DNA of 64,000 bases from Granulicella mallensis (GTDB lineage Bacteria; Acidobacteriota; Terriglobia; Terriglobales; Acidobacteriaceae). Below the pieces are notes generated by a model that made no database searches, had not been told where the DNA came from, and saw only the letters and a program-made list of their open reading frames with translations. The stretch spans positions 1 to 64,000 of the forward strand of contig NZ_JACHIO010000023.1 of the NCBI RefSeq assembly GCF_014203225.1. The letters run 5' to 3'. Position 1 is the stretch's first letter, and every line of letters begins with the position of its first letter. Shown here one piece after another: positions 46,074-61,382 of the stretch. The position numbers and the translations under genes are program-made.

Positions 46074-47597
46074 TCAATTCGACTGCAGCAGGTAGATGGC
46101 CCAGGGCTGGGTGGAATCCAGTCCGATAAGGAAGATGGCATATTGGCTACCCAGTTGTCCGGCGATGGCCACGGCCTGGAAGGGATACGCGGCGCCGGTT
46201 GAATTGCCCGGATACATTTTGCCGACACAGACCTTGGCCTGGCGATATAAGCCGTTATTCGAAGTGTCCTGCGGGCCGAGGTCGATGACGAAGTCGTTGT
46301 TCCCATACGGATAGTTGGGGTTTTGGTGATTGTCGGAGCCGGGGTCAGGGAGCCCCGTTGTCAGGTTCACGGGGAAGTCTCCGCCATAGATCAGGGTAGA
46401 GCTGGAGGCGTCAGCGTCCACGGACGGACAACCGGTGGACCCGGTGGGCACGCTGGGGAAGCCGAACGAGGCGAGATTCGAGGACCAGGTCACACCCTGG
46501 TCGTTGTTTCCGGCTTCATAGATGAAGCCAAGATACTGCTTGCCGACGACTGTACTGGTGTCCAGCGGGCTGGACGGCTTGGGCAGACCGACTGCGCCGG
46601 TGCCCGCGCCGAGAACATTGTTGTATTGAAGGGCAGGAGCTGTATGGGGAAGAAAGCCCTGCCCAGTGTGGCCGTTATCTTCGACCAGAAGGCCGGTCGA
46701 ACCGATGCCCACCACTGCCTGCGGCGGATTCGATTCGTCTTGTCCTCCGGGATCGGTGATGACCAACTGCCCAGGGACGTTGGTGATATTGCCAAAGAAC
46801 GTGGGCCCACAAGCTCCCGGTACCGGTACCGAAGAGGAGGGGGATTGTGCCGGCGACGTTCCCTTTCCATCGGCAGCGACTTCAGAAGGAAGTCTGTATT
46901 GCTGGATGTTCTGAAAAGTGACGGTACTGCCGCTGGAGACGACATCTACGCTGCCATAGGCGGTATCGGTTGCTGGGTTCCAGATGTTCAGCGGCTGATA
47001 AATGGGTGGTTGGCCGGGTAGGCCGGTCAAGAGTTGCTTGCTCTCCGTAGACGGGATGGTGACGAACTGGTAGGTCTGCGCGGAGGAGAAACTCGGGCAT
47101 TGCGTGGCGGCGACGAGAGGCTGGACCGGCTGCCCGACCAACTGCACCAGCCCCCCGGCCTGACCGGCGAGTTCCACCGCGAAGCTGCCAGGCTTAGATG
47201 GGTTGTAAGCCGTACCTTCATACGAAGGGGTGCCGTTGTTGATGATTTCGTTGTACGTAGCTGTAATACCCAAGGTTCGCAGACCGCGCTGGCTGATCGT
47301 AAAACTACCGGCATTGAGAACCTGAGGGCCGGGCTGGGTCTGAGGCTGGTAGGTTGTCTGCGAGAACGCCAACCCCACATCGTCAAGGGTATAAGTCAGA
47401 GGAGACTGCCCAGCGCTCGATCCAAAAACATACGGTGCAAAGTAGGTTTGCACGCTTGGTGCGGGTGCTGGTGCGGCGGCCTGCGTGGCCGGAATCGGGC
47501 TTGAGCTGCATCCGGCAAGCCAGCCGAGAAACAGAACTGTCCCCAGGCAAGCTGCCACCCGCATGAATTGTCCGGATTGAGATTCGAAACACTGCAT
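46074..47597 (-). CDS. lipoprotein of unknown function (end of the ECF sigma operon)
   Basis: The 507-aa protein has a lipoprotein signal (VAACLGTVLFLGWLAGC, lipobox LAGC) and an Ala/Pro-rich linker. A long mature region rich in Ser, Gly, Thr and Pro without a recognised domain follows; cysteines such as ATQCPSF and GACGPTF may form disulfides. It is probably surface-exposed or periplasmic. It begins 16 nt after the TonB receptor stop, with GAGGAAA as Shine-Dalgarno, and may serve as a SusD-like or accessory ligand-binding lipoprotein by position; sequence does not support SusD homology. The 45913-46073 stretch after it shows no strong terminator. Confidence 0.65.
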   Translation of the reverse strand: MQCFESQSGQFMRVAACLGTVLFLGWLAGCSSSPIPATQAAAPAPAPSVQTYFAPYVFGSSAGQSPLTYTLDDVGLAFSQTTYQPQTQPGPQVLNAGSFTISQRGLRTLGITATYNEIINNGTPSYEGTAYNPSKPGSFAVELAGQAGGLVQLVGQPVQPLVAATQCPSFSSAQTYQFVTIPSTESKQLLTGLPGQPPIYQPLNIWNPATDTAYGSVDVVSSGSTVTFQNIQQYRLPSEVAADGKGTSPAQSPSSSVPVPGACGPTFFGNITNVPGQLVITDPGGQDESNPPQAVVGIGSTGLLVEDNGHTGQGFLPHTAPALQYNNVLGAGTGAVGLPKPSSPLDTSTVVGKQYLGFIYEAGNNDQGVTWSSNLASFGFPSVPTGSTGCPSVDADASSSTLIYGGDFPVNLTTGLPDPGSDNHQNPNYPYGNNDFVIDLGPQDTSNNGLYRQAKVCVGKMYPGNSTGAAYPFQAVAIAGQLGSQYAIFLIGLDSTQPWAIYLLQSN

Positions 47598-47613
47598 AAC
47601 GATTTCCTCTTTG

Positions 47614-50600
47614 CTAGAAGCTGCCCTTCAGGCCGAACTGCAGGATGCGCGGATCGTGCGCGTCCACCGGATGCAGGAAGGAGTTCCCGGCGAGGCAGCC
47701 GGAGGCGCCCGCGGAGTAGAGTTCGGTCTGGCTGCCGTAACAGTTGATGACGTTGTTGCCGGTATTGCCCGGATGGCTGGGGTCGGTGATGCGGAACTGG
47801 GTGTGATTGAAGACGTTGAAGGCTTCGGCGCGAAACTCGATATCCAGGCGCTTCGTCGGCTTGAAGTGTTTGAACAGCGAGACGTTGAAGTTGATGCGCG
47901 AAGGATTGTTCAGGGAGTTGCGTCCGGCGTCGCCGAAGGTTAGACCGCGCGGCGCGGCGAAGGCGCCCGGGTTCAGCAGCAGCGGCCCCACATTATTGGA
48001 GTTCTGCGCAACAAACGGCTTGCCTACGCGCGCTTTGCCGATCACATCCGGATAGGACCCGATCCCCAGCCCGTCGCCTACGCCGGCATTGTCCGCCGCG
48101 CCGGTGCCGTCTCCGCCACCCCCGTTGATGACGCTGAAGGGCGTTCCGGTCGAGTAGGTGGTGATGCCGCTGATCTGCCAGTCTCCCAGCACCGTCTTCA
48201 TAACGGGCGAGAAGTCCGGTGCGTTGGGAGCTGCGGCGACAGGAGTAGCCTCATCGTCCGAATCGTCGCCATTGCCTACCAGGTGCGTGAAGCCGTGGAG
48301 CAGGCGCAGCAGCGGAAGATCGTAGATATAGCTGACGTTCAGCAGTTGCCGCTGGTCGAAGTCCGAGGTGGCGTGGTTGGAGTGAATGTCGAGAGAGTTG
48401 GCGAAGTTGGCCGAGGCACGGTCGGAGGAGTCGTCCAGGGAGTGGCTGTAGGTATAGGCGATACCGACAGTCAGCGGCCCGGTCGTCTGGCGGAGCGTGG
48501 CCTGAAAGGCATCGTACTCGGAGTCGGCGCTGTTCTGCACCGCGATGATATTGCTGAAGCCGAGATACGGCCGCAGGGCATCGGCGCTTACGCCAAGCTT
48601 TGTAAAGCTGTTTGTAGCACCTTTTGCGAATCCCGGATTACCGGTACAGGCAATGAACGCATTCGCGTAGCCCGGATCGTTGGGGCCGATGGCAGCAGAA
48701 CTCGGAATGGTGATGCCGCCACCATTGGAAGCAGTATTCACACCCGCTGCAGAAAAGGCGCCATTCTGGGCTCCGCTGGAGCAGACACCGGCAGTGACGG
48801 GCTGCCCCGGCCCAAAGGGATTCAACCCTTTGCTGAGCGGCTGCAACTGATTGAGATCGCTCACTGCCGTCAGGTGCGTGCCCTTAGTGCCGACGTAGGC
48901 GATCTGTCCGATCATCCCCTTGTGCACTTCGCGCTGAATGCTCAGGCTCCATTGCTGGGTATAGGAGTACACGGCCTTTGTGGGGATCGAAGTTACGTTC
49001 AAGGGGAAGGTAGAACCCGTCCCTGTACTGTTCCCGCACTGTGTCGTGCCTGGCTGGCAGTAGCCCCCAATAAGGTTGTAGGCATCGGAAGGACTGGTTT
49101 GGCTCTGAATATTCGACTGGGTTTCGCTCAGAACCAGGGGCGCGCTGCCGATCAGCGAGCCGACATTGGCTTCGTAGCCGGTCCCGTGCTCCCAGAAGAG
49201 GCCATAGCCGCCGTGGATAGCGGTCTTGCCGTCACCCCAGGGATCCCAGGAAAAGCCTACGCGCGGCGAGGGATGGAACAGTTTATTGGACATGCAGCTA
49301 TCAGGCACAGGGCTGGCGCCGCACCGCACCAGTCCGTTCACGATCGCAGGATCGAGCGAGCCGAGAGTGTAGGGGCCGGTTTGGCTCAGGGAAATTGCTT
49401 TGCCGCTGGTCTTGGACACCAGGTTTCCCTGGTTCGGGTCGATATAGATGGACGAACCAAGGGATTGACTGAAGGCCTCGGGCCGCCAGTTGTAGGCCGT
49501 ACCGTTGGGGTTATACCAGGCGCCGAAGAGGCTGGCCCGGAAGCCGGCGTTGATTGTCAGGTGAGGGAGTATCCGCCAGTCGTCCTGCAGATAGAGATCG
49601 GCTGTCTTGTAGCGGTTGTGATACTCCCCCTGCCCGCTGTCCTGCGTGTAGCTCTTGATGGCCCCTTGGGGATTGGTTACGGCTCCGTTCGCGTTAGGAT
49701 TCGGCAAGAAGCCTGAGCCGGCCAGAAAGTCCACGAAGGCATTGCCCGAGGTGTGGGTCGATTGCTGATTGCTGAAGGTGAGTAGTCCCTGCAGGTCGCC
49801 GGAGTTGGCGCCGGTAACAGCGCTCAGCTCGTTCTGCTGCACATACGAGCCCCAGAATCCCCACTGCAAGGTATGCTTTCCGACGATCATGCTGGCGTCA
49901 TCGCGAATGGTAAAGGTGGGATTGTCCTGGGCCCACGGTGCGTAACCCGTATCCACGGCAAAGCCATGTCCCCCGTACGCTCCGTTGGTTCCCTGAAAGA
50001 CCAGTCCCGGTAGCTTGCCCCCGCCGTACCCATTGTTGAAGATGTACCCCATGGGGCACTCGGTCACGGACGCAGGATTAAAGGCTGCATTTGGCGCTGA
50101 AAAGACAGAGCACATCGTACCCTTGATTGGCATTCCTCCCTGCGAGGCTGGATCGGTCAAAGAATCCGGCCTGCTGAGAGACGAGACACCGACTCCCGGC
50201 TGCGGAGCGAGGGAGATGTGTTCGACCTCGTAACCTGCCGACACAAGGTTGATGATTCCATGCGGCAAGGTCTGTGCCAGAAGAACAACCATGTCCAGTC
50301 CGGGACCGTTGAACCGGTTTTCGACCGTAGGAAAGCTGTTCTGGACGATTCCCCACTGCGGAGCGAGCGTCACTGTATCCCAGCTATCGTGCACGTAGCG
50401 AAACGACAGACGTTCGCGCTCCGTCAGATTGTGGTCGATGCGAAACAACTCCTCCCGCCAGTGGGTCGGCGGCGAAACAGCGGCGACGAAGCAGTGAAAC
50501 AGCGGCGAGGCATTGGTCGAATTGCAGCCACTGGCCGAGTTGGGCGCGGGAATCAGCCCGGAGTTGAGAATCGCCGCACTCGTGTAATCCACCGGCACCT

Positions 50601-51870
50601 GCAGGCCGGCGTTATAGGTTGCGCCCGCAGTACTGTTGAAGGAGGTGGAGTTGGATACTCCTGCCTGCGGGCAATCGGGAAATTGTGACGGGCTGAACGT
50701 TCCGGACCCTCCTGGAACCGGCGTCGGGCATAGGTCGAAGAAGTTCCCGGCCCGCTCGGCCATGGTGGGCACAGCCTGGTTGTAATCGACCGGGGTCTTT
50801 TCGCGGCGAATCTCTTCGGAGAAGAAGAAGAAGGTCCTCGTCTTGCCGGTGTTGTAAACGCCAGGGATATAGATAGGGCCGCCGATGGTGCCGCCGAAGT
50901 CAAGCCTCCGATAGAGTGGCGTGCGATAGACGGACTTGCCCTGGAAACCCTGAGGTTCTGCATTCGGTTGATCGAAGTAGTTTCTGGCATTGAACATCTC
51001 ATTGCGCAGGAAACCGTAGGCGACGCCGTGAAAGTTCTCCGTGCCCGATTTCGTTGTCACCAGAACGCTTCCCGAGGCGCTCTTGCCGTAGAGCGCGCTG
51101 TAGTCGGCGGTAAGGATCTTCATGTCCTGAATGGAGTCAACGCTGGGATAGACAACCAGCGGCTCACCTTGTCCGCGGCTGGTATTGATGCTGGTGTTGA
51201 GCACATCGCTGCCGTCCACCTCGAAGGTGTTGTATTCCACGCGGCCGCCATTGACGCTGAACTTCGCGCTTCCGGATACGCCGACCTTGGCTTCGTCCTG
51301 GCCCGTCTGGTTACTGACGCCGGGAGAGAGTGCACTGAGAGACAGAAAGTTGCGGCCGTTCAATCCATAGCCGGTGACCTCGCTGCTGTTCAAGGTCGTA
51401 GACATGGACGCCGTGCCTGTATCGACCGTGGTGGGCGCCCCGGCACTGACATTTACATCCTGACTGACCTCATTGACTGCAATCTGAGCATTGAAGACGA
51501 TCGCCTGTCCGGCAGCGAGAGAAAGAATCTGGCTCGATCTCCGGCTGAATCCCTGCGCCTCCACGATGAGCTGATAGCGTCCGGGAGGAAGCCCGGGAAC
51601 GGTGTACGCACCCGTGCTGTCTGTTTTGGCCTCACGCTTCACCAGCGTTTCCTGATTGACGATCTGGATTGTTGCCGCGGGAATCGCGGCTCCATCGGGA
51701 TCGGTAACCTGCCCCGAAAAACGCCCGGTAGCAGTCTGTCCGGCAAGGCGCAGGGCGCTGAATACTGGAACCAGCGCCACTGCGAGCAGTAGCCATCGAA
51801 ATGATCGAAACATCTTCTGAAAGGCTCCTAGTCCTTGTTTTCGCTTTGCCGTTCCCATCTCCGTCTTCAT
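47614..51870 (-). CDS. very large TonB-dependent outer-membrane receptor
   Basis: At 1418 aa this is about 200 residues longer than the other two receptors here. It has a signal peptide (FRWLLLAVALVPVFSALRLAGQ), a carboxypeptidase-regulatory-like domain (about 48-130; GRFSGQVTDPDGAAIPAATIQIVNQ), a plug (about 150-260; GYGLNGRNFLSLSALSPG) and a barrel ending in ILQFGLKGSF. Its ATG abuts the porin stop codon (TAAATG), so translation is coupled. Starts at 51858 or 51813 (MFRSF, with AGGAG) are possible. It lies inside the sigma-factor operon beside a porin and lipoproteins, which suggests a dedicated import system under that sigma factor. Cargo unknown. Confidence 0.88.
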   Translation of the reverse strand: MKTEMGTAKRKQGLGAFQKMFRSFRWLLLAVALVPVFSALRLAGQTATGRFSGQVTDPDGAAIPAATIQIVNQETLVKREAKTDSTGAYTVPGLPPGRYQLIVEAQGFSRRSSQILSLAAGQAIVFNAQIAVNEVSQDVNVSAGAPTTVDTGTASMSTTLNSSEVTGYGLNGRNFLSLSALSPGVSNQTGQDEAKVGVSGSAKFSVNGGRVEYNTFEVDGSDVLNTSINTSRGQGEPLVVYPSVDSIQDMKILTADYSALYGKSASGSVLVTTKSGTENFHGVAYGFLRNEMFNARNYFDQPNAEPQGFQGKSVYRTPLYRRLDFGGTIGGPIYIPGVYNTGKTRTFFFFSEEIRREKTPVDYNQAVPTMAERAGNFFDLCPTPVPGGSGTFSPSQFPDCPQAGVSNSTSFNSTAGATYNAGLQVPVDYTSAAILNSGLIPAPNSASGCNSTNASPLFHCFVAAVSPPTHWREELFRIDHNLTERERLSFRYVHDSWDTVTLAPQWGIVQNSFPTVENRFNGPGLDMVVLLAQTLPHGIINLVSAGYEVEHISLAPQPGVGVSSLSRPDSLTDPASQGGMPIKGTMCSVFSAPNAAFNPASVTECPMGYIFNNGYGGGKLPGLVFQGTNGAYGGHGFAVDTGYAPWAQDNPTFTIRDDASMIVGKHTLQWGFWGSYVQQNELSAVTGANSGDLQGLLTFSNQQSTHTSGNAFVDFLAGSGFLPNPNANGAVTNPQGAIKSYTQDSGQGEYHNRYKTADLYLQDDWRILPHLTINAGFRASLFGAWYNPNGTAYNWRPEAFSQSLGSSIYIDPNQGNLVSKTSGKAISLSQTGPYTLGSLDPAIVNGLVRCGASPVPDSCMSNKLFHPSPRVGFSWDPWGDGKTAIHGGYGLFWEHGTGYEANVGSLIGSAPLVLSETQSNIQSQTSPSDAYNLIGGYCQPGTTQCGNSTGTGSTFPLNVTSIPTKAVYSYTQQWSLSIQREVHKGMIGQIAYVGTKGTHLTAVSDLNQLQPLSKGLNPFGPGQPVTAGVCSSGAQNGAFSAAGVNTASNGGGITIPSSAAIGPNDPGYANAFIACTGNPGFAKGATNSFTKLGVSADALRPYLGFSNIIAVQNSADSEYDAFQATLRQTTGPLTVGIAYTYSHSLDDSSDRASANFANSLDIHSNHATSDFDQRQLLNVSYIYDLPLLRLLHGFTHLVGNGDDSDDEATPVAAAPNAPDFSPVMKTVLGDWQISGITTYSTGTPFSVINGGGGDGTGAADNAGVGDGLGIGSYPDVIGKARVGKPFVAQNSNNVGPLLLNPGAFAAPRGLTFGDAGRNSLNNPSRINFNVSLFKHFKPTKRLDIEFRAEAFNVFNHTQFRITDPSHPGNTGNNVINCYGSQTELYSAGASGCLAGNSFLHPVDAHDPRILQFGLKGSF

Positions 51871-53763
51871 TTATTTAGGAAGGTAGTAACGAATCGATGT
51901 GAACCACATGTTGTCAATGGCCTTTGGAGAGTTGGTCAAGCCGGCTGCGGGATTGCCGATTCCCTGCCACGTCCGGCGCTCGGCATAGGAGTACTGAATT
52001 CCCTGCTGCAGCGTTCCGCGCGAACCCCGATAGAAGCGGAACCAGTAGCCAAAGGTTCCTTCCTGGATGTTGCGGTTATCCGCGTTGCAGTTGGAGGGGC
52101 CGGAAGCCACATTGCCACCGCCGTTTGGCGAGGTAACGGGCAGCACCTCGACATAGCAGCCGGCGACATTGTTGGTGGGCGCGCCATAGCCGCCCAGGAT
52201 CGGCTGACCCAGCGTGGGTCCGGCAGTCGTGACGGTATATCCGGTGTTGTACCAGGCACGCTTGGCATATTCGCCGCCGTAATACCCGTACAGATCGAGA
52301 CGCGGCGTTGCATGCCATTCGACCGATCCCAGAGCCGAGCCACCCGAGAGCAGTTCGAGCGAGCCGTCGGGATGTGCTGTAGCGTCCGGCAACTGCGCGC
52401 TGCTGTAGCGGCCGATACCGTTCCCGGCGAGGATATGCCCATCAATCTCCAACTTCTTGGCAAACAGCCACACGCGCGCATTCGCGCCTACGCCGCCGCC
52501 ATCGGCCTTCGTTGTGTAAGCGCCAAGCGCGGAGGTCGTAACCGGTTGTGCCGCACCGGCGGGAGCGGGGCCATTCGGATAGACACGATCACGGAAGAAG
52601 CGGCTGATGCCAAAGAGTTCGAAGTGTCCCCAGTTGGTTTCGTAGGCGGCCTTGGCAATCAGGTCCGGAGCTTCGTTGAAGCTATAGTTCGCCGTGGAGT
52701 TATAAAGCCCGCCACCGTTTCCTGTCTGCTGATAAGCAATCGTAGGAAGATTGTGGCCGCCGATGTTGAGCGTCTGCGACTCTTCGACGGCTCCGCCGAT
52801 CCAGAACTTGTTCGACAGCCTCTTCACGACACGAAAGCCGTACTGGCGTTCCCAGGTGAATCCGACGTTGTACTGTGCGTCGACCGTCAATGGTATGGCT
52901 TCGGAGTTGTTCTCCAGACCGTGCCGGTATTCGGTGGCGAGCGACCACATCTGACCGCCCGTCAGAATCCAGCCGTTGTTCAGCTCGGCCTGTGCCCATG
53001 CCTGGCGCAAACGCAACGGGTAGCTGTTGCTCTGGTTGTCGTTCGAAGTCGTTCCAGCGGACAGAAAATCCGCCTCGAAGTACCCGCGCAGTGTCGCGGC
53101 CGGGATCTTGCCTTCCGCCAACAGCGAAATACGCGACTGCCTGCCGCTCGCGTTGAACTCGGACAGCTCGCCTGCCGTTGTACCGGCGAACGGAATTCCG
53201 GTGAACTGGGTGTTCACATCGCCGCCGATCGCACGTTGCCGGTCGACGGTCTCAGCCGCGAGGAAGCCGCCCGGCTTGAGGCCGATTCCCATGAAGCGAA
53301 TCATGTCGGGATTTTCGAGCTTCTTCGTCTCTTCCTGGCTCGCCTGAACCTGCGTTGAAAGTGAACTCGATGTCGTCTTCAGGGTTGCCACATCGCCCTG
53401 CAGCGTCGTAACCGTGGAGCCATCCGTGCCGATAATAGCCTGAGTGGCCTCGAGCTTCTGCTTGGCGTCGGCGGCATCCTTGCGGGCCTGCTCCAACTCG
53501 GCATCACGCGCTGCCATGCGCTGCTGGAGAGCCTCGTACTTCTGCTCCAAGTCGTTCAACTTGCTGTTGACCTGATCGAGTTTTTGAAACTTCTCGTTCA
53601 ACTGCTCCAGCAGAATCTCTTCCTGCGTCGGTGCTTTCGTCTTCGTTTTCGCGACCTTTGTCCTGACTGGTTTGACTGGCGGCTGATCCGTACCGCTCTG
53701 TGCCTGCGCCACGACGCATGTTGCTAGAACCACTCCGGCCACCATCTGTCTAAATCTGTTCAT
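51871..53763 (-). CDS. DcaP-like outer-membrane porin with N-terminal coiled coil
   Basis: The 630-aa protein has a signal peptide (MVAGVVLATCVVAQAQ). A long coiled coil (about 45-145; LEQLNEKFQKLDQVNSKLNDLEQ, AARDAELEQARKDAADAKQKLE) is followed by a beta barrel from about 160 to the end (IRFMGIGLKPGGFLAAE, GRQSRISLLAEGK, GYFEADFLS, SYPLRLRQAWAQAE, FTSIRYYLPK). Coiled-coil plus barrel, with these motifs, resembles trimeric DcaP porins that pass dicarboxylates and other anionic solutes. ATG 53763 is chosen because GGGAGAAG precedes it by a few nt and the signal peptide follows. It sits 46 nt after the small Ig lipoprotein and directly before the TonB receptor. Confidence 0.75.
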   Translation of the reverse strand: MNRFRQMVAGVVLATCVVAQAQSGTDQPPVKPVRTKVAKTKTKAPTQEEILLEQLNEKFQKLDQVNSKLNDLEQKYEALQQRMAARDAELEQARKDAADAKQKLEATQAIIGTDGSTVTTLQGDVATLKTTSSSLSTQVQASQEETKKLENPDMIRFMGIGLKPGGFLAAETVDRQRAIGGDVNTQFTGIPFAGTTAGELSEFNASGRQSRISLLAEGKIPAATLRGYFEADFLSAGTTSNDNQSNSYPLRLRQAWAQAELNNGWILTGGQMWSLATEYRHGLENNSEAIPLTVDAQYNVGFTWERQYGFRVVKRLSNKFWIGGAVEESQTLNIGGHNLPTIAYQQTGNGGGLYNSTANYSFNEAPDLIAKAAYETNWGHFELFGISRFFRDRVYPNGPAPAGAAQPVTTSALGAYTTKADGGGVGANARVWLFAKKLEIDGHILAGNGIGRYSSAQLPDATAHPDGSLELLSGGSALGSVEWHATPRLDLYGYYGGEYAKRAWYNTGYTVTTAGPTLGQPILGGYGAPTNNVAGCYVEVLPVTSPNGGGNVASGPSNCNADNRNIQEGTFGYWFRFYRGSRGTLQQGIQYSYAERRTWQGIGNPAAGLTNSPKAIDNMWFTSIRYYLPK

Positions 53764-53809
53764 TTTCTTCTCCCTTGGTCCTGTCTTGTCCTGTGCGGAA
53801 ATATCTTTG

Positions 53810-54622
53810 TCAATCGATCGTGATCGTGGCGACGACGGCCTTTGTCGGGTCGGCAATCGAGGTGGCAGTCACCTTGACAATGTCGCCTTCCGGCACCGTT
53901 GCGGGAGCGGTGTAGACCGTATCCACAGCGCTTGTGGTCTTGGCCGGATTGAACGAGCCGCAGTCGCTCGATCCGCAGATCACAGTCCAATTCACCCCGG
54001 CATCTGTCACGTCGTTATTCAGCACCACTCTGAGCTGAGTGGTAGTGCCTGCCCTCAATGTGGCTAGCGGCGCAGGCGCGAATCCCACCGAGATCGGAAG
54101 GCCGCCAATGGTCAGCGTGGTGCTAGAGAACTTGCTGTGGTCGCTGGTCGAGATCGCATAGAGGGTGACCGTCCCTAGCTTCGGTGTGGCGGGGGGCGCG
54201 GTATAGAACGCCACATAGCCGGCGCCACTGGTTACGTAACTGGGCAGAGGCCCGCTTATCGTGTGCGCTGGAGTGAAGGTGCCGCACGATTGGTCCTGTG
54301 TCTGTCCCGGCGGCAGCGGAGCGCCTGGAGGCAGCGCGCTTCCGCAGTACGCGCTCCAGTCCGCACCCAGCAACTGCGGATCGTTCGTCAATGTCACGTC
54401 GACATACGTACCGTGGCTGGTCGTGAGCGACACCGGAGGACTCTTCAGGGGAGTTCCGTTCTCGTCGGTGAAGGTAATCGGCTTGACTACAATGTCGGAT
54501 ACGGAGCTGCCGGAGGAGCAGCCCGATACCGCTGCCAGACTGGCTAACAGCAAGGCAAGCGCTGCTGGCCGAAAGCTTTGTGAAATACAAATTCTCTTGA
54601 GCATGAGCACAGGGATCTTCAT
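53810..54622 (-). CDS. lipoprotein with Ig-like repeats (small)
   Basis: The 270-aa protein has a lipoprotein signal (PAALALLLASLAAVSGC). It has about two Ig-like repeats of the same type as in the upstream giant protein: NNDVTDAGVNWTVICGSSDCGSFNP then VYTAPATVPEGDIVKVTATS. Each repeat has a close cysteine pair. Function is unknown; such domains usually act as spacers or binding modules on the cell surface. The start at 54622 is supported by GAGGAAG 2-6 nt upstream and direct entry into the signal. It lies 59 nt after the giant protein and is probably in the same transcript. Confidence 0.75.
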   Translation of the reverse strand: MKIPVLMLKRICISQSFRPAALALLLASLAAVSGCSSGSSVSDIVVKPITFTDENGTPLKSPPVSLTTSHGTYVDVTLTNDPQLLGADWSAYCGSALPPGAPLPPGQTQDQSCGTFTPAHTISGPLPSYVTSGAGYVAFYTAPPATPKLGTVTLYAISTSDHSKFSSTTLTIGGLPISVGFAPAPLATLRAGTTTQLRVVLNNDVTDAGVNWTVICGSSDCGSFNPAKTTSAVDTVYTAPATVPEGDIVKVTATSIADPTKAVVATITID

Positions 54623-54681
54623 CACTTCCTCTTGTTCAGATATTCGGTAGGAACGGGCCGGCAACGATCCAACGACGTTTC

Positions 54682-57600
54682 TCATGGCTTCGCCGCCAGT
54701 TTGTTGTTCTTCATGCCCAACGCGATGGGTGTCACCACCGGTGTGGCAGTGCCGATGTGTTCAATGACGATGTTGTTGGCGAGCAGCACCCACACATTGC
54801 CCGCCCCATCCACGGCAGCACGCAACGATCCGGCATTTACGACATTGGGGACAGGGATAGAAACGCCAGCGCCAGCGTAATTTCCCATCGCATCGCGGAG
54901 AAATACACCCCCGCCCGGCCCGGTGATCCATAGACCTCCCGCACCGTCGAATGCAAGGCCCTGCTGGCTGGTGCCAATCAGTGCGTAGCTACTACTTTGC
55001 TGACTGAACCCCTGGTAGCACGTAGGTGTCAGGGTTGTTCCTAGCCCGCCGTAGGGTGGAGCTTCGCAGACATAACTTTCCCCGTTACCGACGGCGGATA
55101 CGCCCCAAATATCGCCTTTACCATCCGCAGCCAGTTGCGGAAGAATCGTTATTCCCTCCCCGGTCGGTGCGACGCCGCTATTGACAATTAACTCTCCACC
55201 CGGATTCGTAAGCTCGGAAAGAATGCCGGGAGCGGTGCTGATCGAATTTCCAATCCACACGTTGTTAGAACTGTCGATGTCCAAGGCGGTGATACTGGAG
55301 TTCCCGCTGTTGGTGAACCCGGATGCGGGTGACAGCTCCACGCCAAGATTGTTGAACTCGTTCACCCCTCCGCCGTTGGCAATCCACAGATTGTCCTGGG
55401 CGTCGAAGGCTATATCGCTGCCCCCGCCGGCCACACCACTAAAGGGACTTCCGAGTACGGTGGTTCCCAGGTTCGTCAGTTCGCTCAGGACGCTGTTGCC
55501 GGAGACCCATACATTTCCGCCGGCATCAATCGCAAGCAGACCGCCGCCCGCAGGAAAGCCGGTGGAGGGTGAGAGTGCCGCACCAACGGCGTTCCATTCA
55601 ATGACGTTGCCGCCCGTGGTGTCTGTAATCCAAAGATTCCCGCTGGCATCGACCGCGAAGGAGCCGACCGTGCTCGCGGTAGTAAGGCCTCCACCGCTCG
55701 TGTAATTCAACGAGACTGACCAGTCACCCGGCAGCGCCGTGAGGATCGGCTGAAAAGGAGAGCTGAAAGTCGCCAGACCGAAGAGGTGAGTGGAGTCCAC
55801 TGCGTAGCTGCTGCCAGCACTAACGGTCACCGGCACAGGGTGCTGCGCAATGTTGAACGCAGCCTGCAGTGTGTCGGATGGCGCAATGGTCCCGTTGAAT
55901 TTTCCTGCTGGGAGCGTATCCGTCGCTGTGAACAATACACCGCAAGGACTCCCGTCACCTTCCACGCCGCCCGAGGTTGCCGTGCAGGCATTCAAGGCAT
56001 CGGCGAGCGTGTCGATCTCCACATAGGGGACAGCTGCGTTCGCAGCGGGAACCACGAATCTTGCCTGCCCGGTTGTGATATCGACCAGGTTGTTCACAGC
56101 GGCGAACGCATTCGCCAGCCCGGTGGGATTCCCGCTGCTCGTGCCCAGATAGAGATAGCTGCTGTTGCCGGTGAGTTCGTCGTTGGCTGCAAAGGGAGAT
56201 GTTGCCCATGCCGAAGCAACGGTCGTGACCTCGTTGACGACAACCGCGCTGGAACCAAGCGCGTTGCAGCTTCCCAGCGCCGTCATCATGGAGAGATTCG
56301 GATTCGCGGCGTTGGTTCCAACTTTGCCGCCGGTCGCCACCAGGTACATCTGGCTGATGGGAGAGGGGCAGGTATAACCGGCAGGCACCGTAAACTTGCC
56401 GTTTTTGTCTGTCGTAGCTGCCGCAATCTGCGAAGAGGCCGAAGCATATCCGCTCGTCCCGGCGGCATACAGGAAGACGGAGGCGCCCACAACCGGCAGC
56501 GTTCCCGCCTGAACTGTGCCGTTCAGCGCTGGCCCGGTCGGGCTTGTGATGATAGCGATGGTTCCCGAGTTCGCCGTTGTCCGGTCCGCATGAGACAGAG
56601 CCTCCACTACAACCACGCCTGATGTCGGCGGATCGGATGGTGCCGTATAAGGAATCGACAGGCCATTGGACCAGGCCGGGACGCTGGTTGCCGTCACCGC
56701 CGGGACTGCCGGCACGTAGGGTGTCGTAGCTGTAGCCGGAATCGCCGGGATCGCGGGCTTCACCGTGAAGAAACCGCAGCCACTCGCGCATACCTGCCAG
56801 TCCACTCCGGCATTCATTGCATCATTGGCCACTGCGGCGGTGAGGTTCACAGTCGCATTCGTTTGGATCTGCGCAGGCAGTGAAGGGACGAAGCCGACCG
56901 AAAGAACTGTCGACGGATTGATCGTGATGGAACTTGAACTAAGGCTCACGCTCGGATCTGCGACCGATGTTGCGACGATCGTCACCGAGGCGATAGGCGG
57001 CGGCGGCGTGATAGGCTGCGTGACCGGCGGCGCAGGAAGCGTGACCGGCGGCGCGGGTGGCGCGGTGTAGACGGCCGTCGCTCCGCTCGCCGTCTGGGCA
57101 GGAGAGATCCAGCCACAACCGCCAGGGACCGTGCTGCTGCACTGCACGGACCAGTTGACGCCTCCCGGTGAAACATCGTTCGTAACCGTGGCGCTGACGG
57201 GAGCCTGGGACGCAGCTATCATCGGCGTCGGCGGCGCCTGCGTGAAGGCGAGAGTTGGTGGTGCAGCAACCACCATGGTGATCGCGATAGCAGGATTCGA
57301 CGGCGTGGATGCCGGCGAAGACGCGGTGATCGTCACCAGGCCGCCCGTGGGAACCGAGGCAGGGGCTGTGTAGATGATCTTCCCTGCGCTTGCCGTGTGC
57401 GCGGGAGACACATTGAAGCTGCCGCATCCGCTCGTACCGCCGCAACTCGCCGTCCAGTTCACACCCAGGCTCTTCGGATCGGAAGCTACCGTAGCCGCGA
57501 GCGTCGCTTGAGCTCCCGTAGTCAGCGCGGACGGTGGCGCGGAGGACATCGTGACGACAATCGGTGCAGTGGTAACGAATGTCGCGGTGATCGACGCCGA

Positions 57601-58677
57601 TACCGCCGGATTCGTCGTGGATGCGGCCGTAATGGTGACAGTCCCGCTGGGCGGAATGGAGATAGGACTCGTATAACTTACGGAGGCCCCACTCGCTGTG
57701 TGCGCCTTAGCCGATCCACCAAATGATCCACAACTCGATGCACCGCAACTGAGAGACCAGTCGACACCGGCGGCAGCCGGATCGTTGGCAACGATCGACG
57801 TCAAGGGGGTCGAGCGAGCTGAACCGGTGGTTGTCAAATACACGTTCGACTGCAACACGCTCACCGTGACCGGAACGGGCGGAGGCGGCGCAGTGATCTG
57901 CACTTTGGCGCTTGCCGATTTGCTCGTGTCGGTCAGCGAGGTAGCCGTGATCGTCACGATGCCGCCCGTCGGCACGACGGAGGGGGCCGTATAGGTTGTG
58001 GATTCCAGCGATGATGTTGGATTGAACGAGCCGCAGGCACTCGATCCGCACGTGGCCGTCCAGGTGACGCCCGCACCCAACGGATCGTTGGTCACCACGG
58101 CGTTGAAGACGTGGGTTGCGTTGATCTCCAGAGAAGCCGGCACCGCACCAGTGAACGCAACACTGATCGGCGTCGCGACGATGGTGAGGCTCACGCTGCT
58201 GCTCTGCGATGGGTTGCTGGTCACTGTCGCAGTGACAGTAATGGCGCCTCCGATCGGCGCTACGGACGGAGCCGTGTAGACCGTAGCCGCACCATCCGCC
58301 GTATGGGCGGGAGCCAGTGTGCCGCATGCGCCATTACTGATGCTGCCCGTAACGGGATTGCCCTCGCAGGTCACGATCCAATCGACGCCTGCGCTGCTTT
58401 TGTCTCCAACCGGCATCATGCTGAAATTCACAGCGGAACCCACGGCAAGGATGCTGGTCTTCACTGCTGTTCCGCTGGCCGTGCTCATCGCAATAGGCGC
58501 AGCGGCAGCCGCCGAAGAAGAGACACCGCCACTGCTGCAGCCGGCAGTAGCTGCTGCCAGGGCCGTTATACACAGTGCGCTGAAAAGACGGCCCATCGCA
58601 TGACCATCCTGCCGCCTTCGGCATGGCCGGGCAGGTGCAAAACGTGAAAGCGGACTGGAAATAATAATGGACTGCAT
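54682..58677 (-). CDS. giant lipoprotein: six Ig-like repeats plus NHL/Vgb-type propeller
   Basis: The 1331-aa predicted surface lipoprotein has a signal (FSALCITALAAATAGC, cysteine near residue 47). Six Ig-like repeats of 90-120 aa run from about 55 to 690, each with AGVDW/AGVNW, a short-spaced Cys pair (for example TCGSSACGSF) and YTAP...GTVTITATS. A carboxypeptidase-regulatory-like and alpha-helical middle (about 700-960) and a C-terminal propeller (about 970-1310; FAVDASGNLWITDTTGGNVIEW, LAIDAGGNVWVSG) like streptogramin-lyase/NHL folds follow. The start at 58677 is supported by TAGGAGA, whose TAG is the stop of the anti-sigma-like gene, implying coupling; ATG 58596 would shorten the signal. 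It is paralogous to the protein at 61383-64000. Confidence 0.78.
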   Translation of the reverse strand: MQSIIISSPLSRFAPARPCRRRQDGHAMGRLFSALCITALAAATAGCSSGGVSSSAAAAAPIAMSTASGTAVKTSILAVGSAVNFSMMPVGDKSSAGVDWIVTCEGNPVTGSISNGACGTLAPAHTADGAATVYTAPSVAPIGGAITVTATVTSNPSQSSSVSLTIVATPISVAFTGAVPASLEINATHVFNAVVTNDPLGAGVTWTATCGSSACGSFNPTSSLESTTYTAPSVVPTGGIVTITATSLTDTSKSASAKVQITAPPPPVPVTVSVLQSNVYLTTTGSARSTPLTSIVANDPAAAGVDWSLSCGASSCGSFGGSAKAHTASGASVSYTSPISIPPSGTVTITAASTTNPAVSASITATFVTTAPIVVTMSSAPPSALTTGAQATLAATVASDPKSLGVNWTASCGGTSGCGSFNVSPAHTASAGKIIYTAPASVPTGGLVTITASSPASTPSNPAIAITMVVAAPPTLAFTQAPPTPMIAASQAPVSATVTNDVSPGGVNWSVQCSSTVPGGCGWISPAQTASGATAVYTAPPAPPVTLPAPPVTQPITPPPPIASVTIVATSVADPSVSLSSSSITINPSTVLSVGFVPSLPAQIQTNATVNLTAAVANDAMNAGVDWQVCASGCGFFTVKPAIPAIPATATTPYVPAVPAVTATSVPAWSNGLSIPYTAPSDPPTSGVVVVEALSHADRTTANSGTIAIITSPTGPALNGTVQAGTLPVVGASVFLYAAGTSGYASASSQIAAATTDKNGKFTVPAGYTCPSPISQMYLVATGGKVGTNAANPNLSMMTALGSCNALGSSAVVVNEVTTVASAWATSPFAANDELTGNSSYLYLGTSSGNPTGLANAFAAVNNLVDITTGQARFVVPAANAAVPYVEIDTLADALNACTATSGGVEGDGSPCGVLFTATDTLPAGKFNGTIAPSDTLQAAFNIAQHPVPVTVSAGSSYAVDSTHLFGLATFSSPFQPILTALPGDWSVSLNYTSGGGLTTASTVGSFAVDASGNLWITDTTGGNVIEWNAVGAALSPSTGFPAGGGLLAIDAGGNVWVSGNSVLSELTNLGTTVLGSPFSGVAGGGSDIAFDAQDNLWIANGGGVNEFNNLGVELSPASGFTNSGNSSITALDIDSSNNVWIGNSISTAPGILSELTNPGGELIVNSGVAPTGEGITILPQLAADGKGDIWGVSAVGNGESYVCEAPPYGGLGTTLTPTCYQGFSQQSSSYALIGTSQQGLAFDGAGGLWITGPGGGVFLRDAMGNYAGAGVSIPVPNVVNAGSLRAAVDGAGNVWVLLANNIVIEHIGTATPVVTPIALGMKNNKLAAKP

Positions 58678-58689
58678 GACCGGGTTCTC

Positions 58690-60480
58690 CTACCTGTCTG
58701 TATTCCGGCGGGAGTCTTTTGCAGACTCCCCATAGGCTTGATCCGCAGCGCCGGCGATGCGATCCAGCGTTGAGGACATGTCCGCGAAGATCGCTTCCGC
58801 GTTTCGCTCAGCCGGAGCATCGGTCTGCGTCAGCTCCTTCACAAACACCAGATTCCTGGACGCCTCCTCGCTAAGCGAGGCCGAGCCCCGCGCAAGGATG
58901 CGTCCATTGAAAGAGGAGCCCCCCTCCATCTGCGCCAACAGCCCGCGCTCCTGGCGCAGAGCGGTTTCCAGGCGTGCGTGATGGCTGTAGAGCAACTCCA
59001 CGACCGTCGCCGAAGCTATGACCGGCATCTGCTCTGTGGCCACAAAGCGCGTCTTCAAATCGACCATTGCGCTGCTCTCATGGCTGATCGCGAGAGCAGC
59101 GGTGAAGGTCTGTTGCGCCATCGCATTGATGTCGTCAACCTTCCGCCCGCGCGACCGAAGATATGTTTCCAGCGCCGACGAGCGGTCGGGCAAAGATGTC
59201 GCCTGCACGCTAACGGATTCACTTCCGGTGAGCGGGGCTTCCCGCATCTGCGCCGCACTCTGGAGGACGAGCTTCAATCGCGGCACTGACCCAAGTTGAG
59301 ATTCCAACTGCCGCTTGCGCTCTTCCGTCTCGACCAGACCATCCACCTCGATGGCCTGCGGAAGCCGATGGATCTCGATCTGCTCACCGGTATCTGCTGC
59401 AAGCTGATTCAGAATGAGCCTGACTGTAAGCTCGGTTTCGTCCAGTTGTTCAGGAGTCGGCGCCAGCGGACGACGGGGCAAGGGGAGCAGAAGGGGCTGT
59501 AGTTGTGACCCGATCATCTTCGGGTCGCCCACTCCTCCCACCGGCTCAAAGACGCTTGGACCGACGGAGCTCCACGGCAGGATCGTGAAATCGACTTCGG
59601 CAATCTCCACAATCTCGCTGTCGCGGAAATCGACTCGCCGCGCAATCGGATGAAAATCGGTATCCCGCACTGTCAGCGATTCTTCCGACACCTCGCCATC
59701 CGGCACGGTCGTGGTCAGCGTTAGCAGATGAACACCGCTACGATCGATACGATCGGCACGCACATGCTGATGATCGTGCCATGCCTGATACGCGGAGGCG
59801 GAGATGGGCTGGTTCCAGTCCACTCCCGCCGCGCCAAGTGTCGAACGGAGTTGTTCTTCAGCAACGGACAAGGTTGCAGGCTTAGGCCGATGCCTTCCCT
59901 GCACATCCCAATAGATCGATCGATTCACAGTCTGCTTCGCCGTCTTGATTTGAATCGTCTGGTGCGCCACTCCGGGGTTCGCCGCGGTGTTGGGCATGTC
60001 CCAGCTCTCTGCACGAACGAGCAGAGCATTTGCGCTGATACTGGGAATGCGTTCCTGCCCCAAGAACGAAAACACCAAAGCTCCCGTAATCAGCCCAATC
60101 GCCACCCCGATGGATGCTGACGGCAGAGCCGATAAGAGGCTGTGCTTCCAGGCAGCAGAAGCTGGGACAGTCCACCTTTGTTGCGACGTCTCTCGCCGCA
60201 CCTGAAACTGCAGCCACGTGGCAAATGCCTCGCGGGGCTCTTCCTGAAGGATCGTGTCCACGCCCTCCAGGCTCTCGCGATAAAGCTGGATCATGTATTC
60301 GGCGCGCGGCCCTTCGAGACTCCGTTGACGCATCCGACATTCCCTGCACATGGCCAGGTGCCGCCGCGCCGTCCACCGCTCAAAGAGTGAAAGCTCGCCG
60401 CAAAACAAAGCCGCCAATCGCTCGTCGGAGAGATGGGTATCGGAGTTGGGAAGAAGATGCCGCAGCAGCTTATCGATCAC
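58690..60480 (-). CDS. zinc-finger anti-sigma-factor-like membrane protein
   Basis: The roughly 596-aa protein has an N-terminal zinc-finger-like segment (RRHLAMCRECRM, an H-x3-C-x2-C anti-sigma pattern) and one TM helix (about 128-148; SIGVAIGLITGALVFSFLG). The large extracytoplasmic region of about 440 aa has no recognised enzyme motif. This is the layout of a membrane anti-sigma factor that binds the sigma factor inside and senses outside. The start is uncertain: GTG 60480 (MIDKLLRHLLPNSD) overlaps the sigma stop by 11 nt, while ATGs at 60492 and 60504 are also open. Overlap with sigma and coupling to the giant lipoprotein support one operon. Confidence 0.72.
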   Translation of the reverse strand: MIDKLLRHLLPNSDTHLSDERLAALFCGELSLFERWTARRHLAMCRECRMRQRSLEGPRAEYMIQLYRESLEGVDTILQEEPREAFATWLQFQVRRETSQQRWTVPASAAWKHSLLSALPSASIGVAIGLITGALVFSFLGQERIPSISANALLVRAESWDMPNTAANPGVAHQTIQIKTAKQTVNRSIYWDVQGRHRPKPATLSVAEEQLRSTLGAAGVDWNQPISASAYQAWHDHQHVRADRIDRSGVHLLTLTTTVPDGEVSEESLTVRDTDFHPIARRVDFRDSEIVEIAEVDFTILPWSSVGPSVFEPVGGVGDPKMIGSQLQPLLLPLPRRPLAPTPEQLDETELTVRLILNQLAADTGEQIEIHRLPQAIEVDGLVETEERKRQLESQLGSVPRLKLVLQSAAQMREAPLTGSESVSVQATSLPDRSSALETYLRSRGRKVDDINAMAQQTFTAALAISHESSAMVDLKTRFVATEQMPVIASATVVELLYSHHARLETALRQERGLLAQMEGGSSFNGRILARGSASLSEEASRNLVFVKELTQTDAPAERNAEAIFADMSSTLDRIAGAADQAYGESAKDSRRNTDR

Positions 60481-61168
60481 CCTGCCCACCATTCCGCAAG
60501 CCATAGACTGCTGCCAGACGCACAGCCACCTGCTTCACCACGAAAGCAGCTCGTTGTTCGCTGAACCCAAGTGCGAGACCGATGTCTTTGTACGGGAAGC
60601 CTTGCGCCCGCATTTGAAAGCACTGCCGATGCTGCGGCTTCAGACTTGAAAGTACCGTCCTCATGAGCTTGACTTGCTCCTTATTCGAATAGCTCTCCTC
60701 CGGGCTCAACGCGGGATCGGCTAGATTCTCCATGACAAAACTGCGGGCCTCTTCATTCACGACTGTCCCGTGCTCCTTCTTCAACACGTTGATGGCGAGG
60801 TTGTGGGCCACCCGGACAATCCATCCCTGGACGTTTTCGATCTTGCTCTCCTTGAGAAGCTCTATGGTCAGGCGCATAAAGGTCTCCTGAATAATTTCGT
60901 CTGCATGATCGCGTCCCAACTGCATGCTGTGCATGTAACGGTAGAGCCTGGGCCGGTACTCGTCGTACAGGGCGAGGATGAACGCTTCCCTTGAATCGCC
61001 TTTGAGAGTCTGCACGGGGTCCTGCCGTTCCTTGTCTCCAGTGGGCGCTCGATCTTCAAGCAATGTCGGCGCAAGATAGGTTGCATCCTCCGTGGGTAGT
61101 TCCGGCTCCGTGAAGCTTGAGCCGCTGTTCCGTCGAATATGAATCTCCGTTCTCTGACAGATCTGCAT
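60470..61168 (-). CDS. ECF-type RNA polymerase sigma factor
   Basis: The 232-aa protein has sigma region 2 (about 65-130; FILALYDEYRPRLYRYMHSMQLGRDHADEIIQETFMRL) and region 4 (about 175-225; LSSLKPQHRQCFQMRAQGFPYKDIGLALGFSEQRAAFVVKQ). Regions 1 and 3 are absent, as in ECF sigma factors. It would direct RNA polymerase to its own promoters when released by the anti-sigma-like protein encoded next. ATG 61168 follows AGGAG by 8 nt; the frame extends to 61345, but that would cross the hairpin at 61252-61287. It heads the seven-gene series down to 46074, which may be its regulon (inference). Confidence 0.88.
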   Translation of the reverse strand: MQICQRTEIHIRRNSGSSFTEPELPTEDATYLAPTLLEDRAPTGDKERQDPVQTLKGDSREAFILALYDEYRPRLYRYMHSMQLGRDHADEIIQETFMRLTIELLKESKIENVQGWIVRVAHNLAINVLKKEHGTVVNEEARSFVMENLADPALSPEESYSNKEQVKLMRTVLSSLKPQHRQCFQMRAQGFPYKDIGLALGFSEQRAAFVVKQVAVRLAAVYGLRNGGQGDR

Positions 61169-61251
61169 TCTCGCTGCTCCTATACCCTGCCCGCAGGGCG
61201 CAACTCGTCCTTGACGCTTCGCATCTCCCAGCGAAGACGGATGTCGTCTTT

Positions 61252-61287
61252 CCTCTGTATCCAGAGCGTGAGCCTTGGATACAGAGG
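61252..61287 (-). terminator. 12-bp perfect hairpin between the giant TIG protein and the sigma gene
   Basis: CCTCTGTATCCA (61252-61263) pairs perfectly with 61276-61287 around a 12-nt loop, about 95 nt past the stop of the upstream gene. A weaker CTTCGC/GCGAAG stem follows. It probably ends that transcript, leaving the sigma operon with its own promoter somewhere in 61169-61251. Confidence 0.6.
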
Positions 61288-61382
61288 GCGGTGAAAGCAG
61301 AGTCGAGATTTGCATATCCATGCGAAACGGTTGCGATGCCCACATTATTTCTCCGAGTATTTTTCGCCCCTGCCTGCACTCG

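Follow-up and report, generated by a model that had tools for sequence, protein, structure and literature searches.

An ECF sigma factor, a putative zinc-finger anti-sigma protein and a TonB-dependent receptor in a conserved gene run of Granulicella mallensis: a possible surface-signalling operon

The gene run and its relatives

The window, i.e., the whole 64,000-nt stretch that was analyzed, comprises positions 1 to 64,000 of contig C23 in the 6.47-Mb genome of Granulicella mallensis. Seven ORFs follow one another on its minus strand, and their positions, order, strand, and tight spacing are as an earlier note on this DNA had described them. The run is opened by a sigma factor (SIG, 60470..61168, 232 aa from the ATG at 61168) and a putative membrane anti-sigma protein (ANTI, 58690..60504, with a possible alternative GTG start at 60480). 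Subsequently, a giant Ig-repeat/propeller lipoprotein of 1331 aa (IgProp, 54682..58677), a small Ig lipoprotein (smIg, 53810..54685), a putative outer-membrane barrel protein with an N-terminal coiled coil (PORIN, 51871..53856), and a TonB-dependent receptor of 1418 aa (TBDR, 47614..51870) are encoded. The lipoprotein LP508 (46074..47597) is the final gene of the conserved set. With the listed ORF starts and SIG read from 61168, SIG and ANTI overlap by 35 nt, ANTI and IgProp are 12 nt apart, IgProp and smIg overlap by 4 nt, smIg and PORIN overlap by 47 nt (a gap of 46 nt if PORIN begins at the ATG at 53763), PORIN and TBDR abut with 0 nt between them, and 16 nt separate TBDR from LP508. The upper limit of 59 nt given previously for the gaps is correct and is also the maximum, provided that smIg starts at its inner ATG at 54622.

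Upstream of SIG, a 214-nt leader on the minus strand (61169..61382), a candidate control element, is preceded by a gene for a TIG/propeller lipoprotein. This gene (61383..64000, minus strand) runs on past the window to about C23:64.86 kb, and its 1194-aa ORF carries the lipobox MAGC. The operon probably comprises eight genes, of which the TIG/propeller lipoprotein gene is the first, because a conserved promoter-like element precedes it. The operon proposed earlier for 61168-46074 thus stands as a gene run, while its upstream limit does not: the probable start lies one gene earlier and outside the window.

The TBDR is composed of a signal peptide, a CarboxypepD_reg domain at residues 52–129 (7.6e-20), a plug, and an OMP_b-brl_4 barrel (PF25183, 1e-141), and it lacks an STN domain. 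TonB receptors with this barrel go by the label Oar-like, and the window's genome encodes at least 65 receptors of the barrel type. Both the CarboxypepD_reg domain and the PF25183 barrel are found in 36/36 receptors scanned, a set that leaves aside the receptors of loci L107–L110 and L159–L161. The propeller of IgProp is less certain than the earlier note had it, as its Reg_prop match of 19.2 bits lies below the Pfam cut-off of 20.4. The label "DcaP-like" for PORIN is unsupported at the sequence level, as comparison with Pfam, NCBIfam, and PDB sequences yielded no DcaP match; that PORIN is a barrel at all is likewise the earlier note's label.

Searches with ANTI found matches in 22 of 150 genomes of the family Acidobacteriaceae (E ≤ 1e-3), and a profile of the protein matched 67 of 398 family genomes (E ≤ 1e-10). 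In the phylum as a whole, the profile matched 11 of 297 genomes at E ≤ 1e-20, of which three belong to other families; the window's own genome is included in each of these counts. Forty ANTI neighborhoods were examined. The receptor adjoins the sigma/anti-sigma unit at 39 of these 40 loci, including those that lack the other cassette genes; as the loci were mostly chosen around the strongest matches and many weak matches lie outside them, this figure describes mainly strong matches. The sole exception (L055) ends at a contig edge. Among the 39 receptor-paired loci, 14 have Ig and barrel genes between ANTI and the receptor, and at 23 the receptor comes next after ANTI (in L108 in pieces). At L058, which lies in the window's own genome, and at L059 the receptor stands before the sigma gene. 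Outside the family but within the phylum, the SIG-ANTI-TBDR order is kept at 3/3 loci.

The complete seven-gene order recurs at 14 loci besides the window, from 12 genomes, and the gene run is therefore more than a chance arrangement. The expectation that the sigma-zinc-finger-Ig-porin-TonB order would be found in other Terriglobia is borne out by these loci, and the sigma/anti-sigma pair, the TonB receptor, and the surface proteins indeed share one conserved gene run. The TIG gene lies upstream of sigma at 11 of the 14 loci and after the last lipoprotein in the other three, namely L044, L095, and the place of L043 (seen in its longer copy L166).

A receptor-based search of named genomes was evaluated for the best 80 of 130 loci. 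All nine receptor-centered loci that reach 62% identity or more and have sufficient flank (L162–L169 and L178, including Silvibacterium bohemicum S15, Paracidobacterium acidisoli, and Granulicella sp. dw_53) have ANTI, IgProp, smIg, and PORIN in front of the receptor; eight of them were judged to be the same places as ANTI-centered loci, and only L164 is new. On the cut contig of L201, PORIN precedes the receptor, and at L175 the receptor lies beside an ANTI fused to sigma. At 69 of the best 80 loci, some with short flanks, ANTI is absent from the receptor's strand. From both neighborhood sets it follows that ANTI nearly always occurs with a receptor and that most such receptors occur without ANTI. 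In the window's genome, a same-strand receptor beside a sigma/anti-sigma pair was found for 3 of 29 sigma-70 region-2 matches, a 624-aa, RpoD-sized match being excluded from the 29. These are the window's pair and those at C1:102306 and C13:174981; L124, where the receptor follows 2 kb on and an opposite-strand gene intervenes, was left uncounted. The gene run is real and conserved. It belongs to an acidobacterial family of sigma factor, zinc-finger anti-sigma, and receptor, and no other branch seen in this family is as rich in genes.

Sigma factor, anti-sigma protein, and promoter-like element

SIG is a sigma factor of the ECF type, in which Sigma70_r2 (41.7 bits, cut-off 24) and Sigma70_r4_2 (26.6 bits, cut-off 25.7) exceed their Pfam cut-offs and a region-3 match is absent from the Pfam list. 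Its start at 61168, as given in the earlier note, is correct. A longer reading from the in-frame ATG at 61345 would add 59 N-terminal residues and was rejected as coding. In comparison with G201, a genome of the same genus, codons 1–59 of the longer ORF carry 1, 2, and 3 substitutions at the three codon positions, and codons 106–291 carry 6, 5, and 44; because the first stretch lacks the third-position excess present downstream, the protein begins at 61168.

The leader holds a 12-bp hairpin and, in conserved form, the Shine–Dalgarno sequence and start codon (ATG/GTG/TTG) of an upstream reading frame. The case for the hairpin as a conserved RNA is only suggestive: one compensatory pair occurs among four close strains, with 126 of 500 shuffles reaching as many, and of eight leaders, three have fold z-scores lower than −3.9, with two of these three coming from one genus. 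Rfam has no match in the window at gathering scores.

ANTI carries an HxxxCxxC motif (H49/C53/C56) whose histidine and cysteines are invariant in 39/39 aligned ANTI proteins. A single transmembrane helix (about 130–148) is followed by a long periplasmic part of about 450 aa that was subdivided by eye into 152–345, 348–432, and 433–604. Pfam gave no match above cut-off for the protein. Below their cut-offs, it matches the ChrR anti-sigma model (E 1.4e-4, 21.8 bits, model cut-off 124.5) and zf-HC2 (0.55; 21 of the 39 ANTI proteins match at E ≤ 1), and the family profile matches the structure of ChrR (5e-4), DdvA (7e-3), and RsiW (0.05). These features suggest a single-pass membrane zinc-finger anti-sigma protein that is class I (ZAS)-like by its motif; its binding and inhibition of sigma are suggested only by adjacency and by the fusions described below. 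The periplasmic part has no match among PDB sequences and no convincing match to a Pfam sensor or to STN or BON, one member of the 39 reaching 0.054 against a Bon-like model. Judged by eye only, some of its segments look LolA/RseB-like and others BON/STN-like.

In 10 of the 39 aligned ANTI proteins, sigma region 2 is part of the same chain. These single chains of 929–994 aa start with the sigma domain. In each of them a membrane helix stands out clearly within residues 457–528, and L045 has an additional borderline helix at 353–371. In 6/6 fusions scanned alone, sigma region 2 exceeds the Pfam cut-off, and region 4 is weak or absent. The fusions adjoin receptors as well. At L050 and L104 the receptor is of a different subtype (1033 and 1086 aa), a hint that in these two the association of sigma/anti-sigma with a receptor persisted through an exchange of receptor. 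A further candidate, L052, was rejected as a fusion by eye, its sigma part being apparently frame-shifted. The window's own ANTI is not fused to sigma.

The promoter-like element lies outside the window at C23:64962-64987, about 100 nt before the TIG gene. It reads GTTGAGA-N15/16-GTCAT, and is located 199–234 nt before the lipobox Cys codon. Of 12 upstream regions, 11 have it at the matching place with 10 to 12 of the 12 letters of its boxes; G035 has 7/12 letters there and a 10/12 match only at −319. The core GTTGA...GTCA is exact in nine loci. When seven loci are anchored on their best match, they agree in ten box columns, as the anchoring favors. They also agree, without being forced to by the anchor, in an AAA that lies 17–19 nt ahead of box one, in two columns of the spacer, and in a T directly behind box two; most remaining columns show 14–52% identity. 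In an anchor-free test, one exact 6+5 dyad is common to 6 of 8 divergent loci, and at most two did so well in 30 shuffles. We infer that the window's sigma factor acts on this element. The pattern has nine matches genome-wide versus six for its reversed control, no clear excess of the kind a large regulon would give, and the element therefore looks local. A promoter common to the fused or minimal systems was looked for and not found.

Possible coupling of anti-sigma protein and receptor

Pairwise identities were compared for 35 ANTI/receptor pairs, drawn from 39 ANTI rows (alignment A2) and 36 receptor rows (A4). L107–L110 have no receptor row, L052 has no ANTI row (its ANTI is in alignment A1 and absent from A2 and A3, its receptor is in A4), and L055 is in neither. 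Over the 35 pairs, ANTI residues 152–604 correlate best with receptor segment 45–135, which holds CarboxypepD_reg (r 0.875, rank 1 of 43), followed by barrel segment 1005–1095 (r 0.865, rank 2). In the non-cassette set of 20 pairs, the order of the two is reversed: the barrel segment ranks first (r 0.779, on 87 of 190 pairs) and CarboxypepD_reg second of 43 (r 0.765). Given plug and barrel, the partial r between the periplasmic part and CarboxypepD_reg is 0.64 (35 pairs) and 0.62 (non-cassette), values reached by 0 of 1000 permutations in each set; once CarboxypepD_reg is accounted for, the barrel contributes 0.23 and −0.07, respectively.

The cytoplasmic zinc-finger segment of ANTI served as the control, with a mixed outcome. 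Over the 35 pairs it prefers CarboxypepD_reg too (0.656 vs. a segment median of 0.537, rank 3, partial r 0.44), and the bootstrap difference of differences spans −0.14 to 0.09. In the non-cassette set it has no such preference (rank 17; 0.04 to 0.46). A separation of the periplasmic part from this control is seen only in the non-cassette set taken in full. Among minimal loci alone, the periplasmic part gives 0.88 for CarboxypepD_reg versus 0.62 for plug and 0.78 for barrel, and the zinc finger 0.76 versus 0.57 and 0.70; among fusions alone, the values are 0.46 versus 0.17 and 0.18, and −0.07 versus −0.19 and −0.18. That CarboxypepD_reg tracks the periplasmic part better than plug or barrel does is evidence of coupling and is not proof of contact. 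Correlated distances can arise without contact.

An extra N-terminal domain on the ANTI-coupled receptors was not found in a crude test by motif spacing and consensus lines. It started from 36 coupled and 69 other receptors, of which 2 and 8 lack the first motif and a further 2 and 8 the second; spacing is 116–121 in the remaining 32 coupled receptors and has a median of 118 (range 12–237) in the 53 others. This fits both a re-used CarboxypepD_reg domain and receptors that do not signal.

We lean, without great assurance, toward a self-regulating import operon, i.e., a cell-surface-signalling switch with a FecIR-like working principle and different parts. The grounds for this are the seven-gene order kept at 14 loci in 12 genomes, the adjacency of ANTI and TBDR (39/40 loci; 3/3 outside the family), the sigma fusions among 10/39 ANTI proteins, the promoter-like element in 11/12 upstream regions, the correlation of the CarboxypepD_reg segment with the periplasmic part of ANTI, the invariant H/C/C in 39/39 ANTI proteins, and M50 (site-2-type) proteases, with three matches in the genome and the family matched in 14/14 control genomes too. 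In such a switch, ANTI would hold the sigma factor at the inner membrane, and its periplasmic part would meet the CarboxypepD_reg domain of the receptor. Substrate binding or transport would alter this contact and open ANTI to regulated proteolysis. The freed sigma factor would then transcribe the operon from the GTTGAGA-N15/16-GTCAT promoter, so that receptor, lipoproteins, sigma, and anti-sigma rise together. In the single-polypeptide branch, sigma release would need cleavage.

Alternatively, the locus may be an ECF-controlled uptake locus in which the anti-sigma protein senses a cue directly, be it a periplasmic solute or the envelope state, and the receptor is a regulated target only. The size of the periplasmic part, which could bind a ligand, agrees with this, as do the coupled receptors without an added domain, the 69 of the best 80 receptor-centered loci without ANTI nearby, and the zinc-finger control that does not separate cleanly in the full 35-pair set. 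ANTI stands beside a receptor at 39/40 loci, however, even without the other cassette genes, and its periplasmic part tracks CarboxypepD_reg above plug or barrel, which makes direct sensing rather unlikely in our judgment. RseA-like envelope-quality control, in which ANTI would be proteolyzed in response to receptor or barrel protein that has failed to assemble, is improbable: it would suit the zinc-finger single-pass architecture, which resembles class I anti-sigmas, the M50 protease in the genome, and operon products that are probable outer-membrane proteins, but a stress regulon would be broad and the promoter pattern has little genome-wide excess. RseA-type systems are also not known to be tied to one receptor gene. 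Very little speaks for an ordinary neighborhood of co-inherited and separately regulated sigma and import genes. The operon is indeed read from sequence alone, and the leader could uncouple expression of the TIG gene from that of sigma and the genes after it, but the genes abut, their order is kept across genera, and SIG-ANTI-TBDR is kept in other families of the phylum.

Within the favored surface-signalling switch, CarboxypepD_reg is a likely stand-in for STN, and its link to ANTI is a promising hypothesis of moderate probability. A wider proposal is more tentative and, on balance, doubtful: TonB receptors may have, in CarboxypepD_reg, a signalling domain of a second class, which in Acidobacteriota would replace STN and address a zinc-finger anti-sigma protein. 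Surface signalling of this kind would then be a lineage of separate origin from FecIR, and it would include sigma/anti-sigma pairs of two chains as well as single-chain ones. The domain is common on Bacteroidota receptors too, and such a signalling class, if true, would give it a testable role. The literature searched holds no account of how acidobacteria sense substrates for OMP_b-brl_4-type receptors; a readout of the sigma promoter would, if the switch is true, be a way to find them. For work on release by cleavage, the single-chain forms would be a compact system to use.

Comparison with known systems

In SusCD-type loci of Bacteroidota, a receptor with a CarboxypepD_reg-like domain is combined with surface lipoproteins. 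The window's operon resembles them in both respects and differs in that its lipoproteins have no SusD-like Pfam match. In the literature searched, to which the main ECF classification does not belong, no title or opening of an abstract describes the present arrangement.

The consulted parts of PMC9249621 and PMC11637429 describe FecI/FecR/FecA-type systems (PupIRB, FoxIRA, FpvI), which likewise bring together an ECF sigma factor, a single-pass anti-sigma protein, and a TonB receptor, and their receptor-gated model has its counterpart in the switch favored here. The genes for the three proteins are adjacent here as they are there. In FoxR, the signalling domain of the receptor is contacted through an STN-like domain (PMC11637429, in part). 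The earlier note had held the wiring to be unlike FecIR/FpvI, and this is correct: the receptor has CarboxypepD_reg instead of STN, the anti-sigma protein is of the zinc-finger and not the FecR type, and several surface lipoproteins are added in the window's operon. Membership in FecIR was rejected, as STN (PF07660) occurs in 0/36 receptors at E ≤ 0.01 and FecR (PF04773) in none of the 39 ANTI proteins at E ≤ 1. The genome's one STN match, a receptor that is FecA-like by eye, and its one FecR-domain match both lie on other contigs.

Zinc-finger membrane anti-sigmas are common according to the part of PMC7406223 consulted. ANTI shares the HxxxCxxC anti-sigma domain with the class I (ZAS) proteins ChrR and RsiW treated there, and with DdvA, and is set apart by its long periplasmic part without a match and its constant pairing with a TonB receptor. 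The fusions resemble actinobacterial ECF48, ECF52, and ECF53, in which sigma is fused to a zinc finger and a transmembrane segment; these belong to a different phylum, and the consulted part of PMC8999054 mentions no outer-membrane receptor partner for them. A further counterpart is IutY from Pseudomonas putida, a sigma/anti-sigma hybrid that works with the receptor IutA and is released by Prc and RseP (parts of PMC9249621 and PMC8999054). Like IutY, 10/39 ANTI proteins unite sigma and membrane anti-sigma in a single chain beside a TonB receptor. IutY is a 41-kDa protein with a FecR-like periplasmic part (PMC9249621, in part), whereas the acidobacterial fusions reach 929–994 aa and possess a further cytoplasmic segment and the HxxxCxxC motif.

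Leader of the sigma gene

The sigma gene is preceded by a leader at 61169-61382 of the window (minus strand), which holds a strong hairpin (z -4.42) and the start of an upstream reading frame. By script, a Shine-Dalgarno sequence followed by an ATG, GTG, or TTG reading-frame start was found in nine of 13 leaders, and in eight of these nine the frame extends beyond the likely sigma start, with G210b being ambiguous. The leader is a candidate element for translational coupling or attenuation.

Genes flanking and following the units

Two genes for secreted proteins, P0012 (L009:7986-9797) and P0013 (L009:9966-11048), lie on the plus strand within C23 ~65.99-69.05 kb and are divergent from the cassette. 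Pfam gives no family for P0012 and P0013 has a weak hydrolase match; in several relatives, genes that resemble them by eye are also divergent to the cassette. A GH92 glycoside hydrolase gene (L009:16261-18822, minus strand) is located ~9 kb beyond the TIG/propeller lipoprotein gene and is not part of the conserved cassette as delimited in this analysis.

In two cases (L047:10654-16872 and L049:5157-9344), a fused sigma/anti-sigma unit is followed by genes for a receptor, a lipoprotein, and giant Ig/NHL/MBG proteins, which is a similar surface theme built from other protein families. The receptor gene is followed directly by an enzyme gene in a further fused unit (S9 peptidase-like, below cut-off, at L050:8210-10633) and in a minimal unit (type I phosphodiesterase, at L053:8170-9534), which hints at substrates.

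Receptors and FecIR-type domains in the genome

The whole genome encodes at least 65 OMP_b-brl_4 receptors (65 of 142 candidates scored), the window's own receptor not being among those 65. The sole FecR match is found on a different contig from the sole STN-domain match (C36:32153-32284, L251), which is carried by a receptor that is FecA-like by eye.
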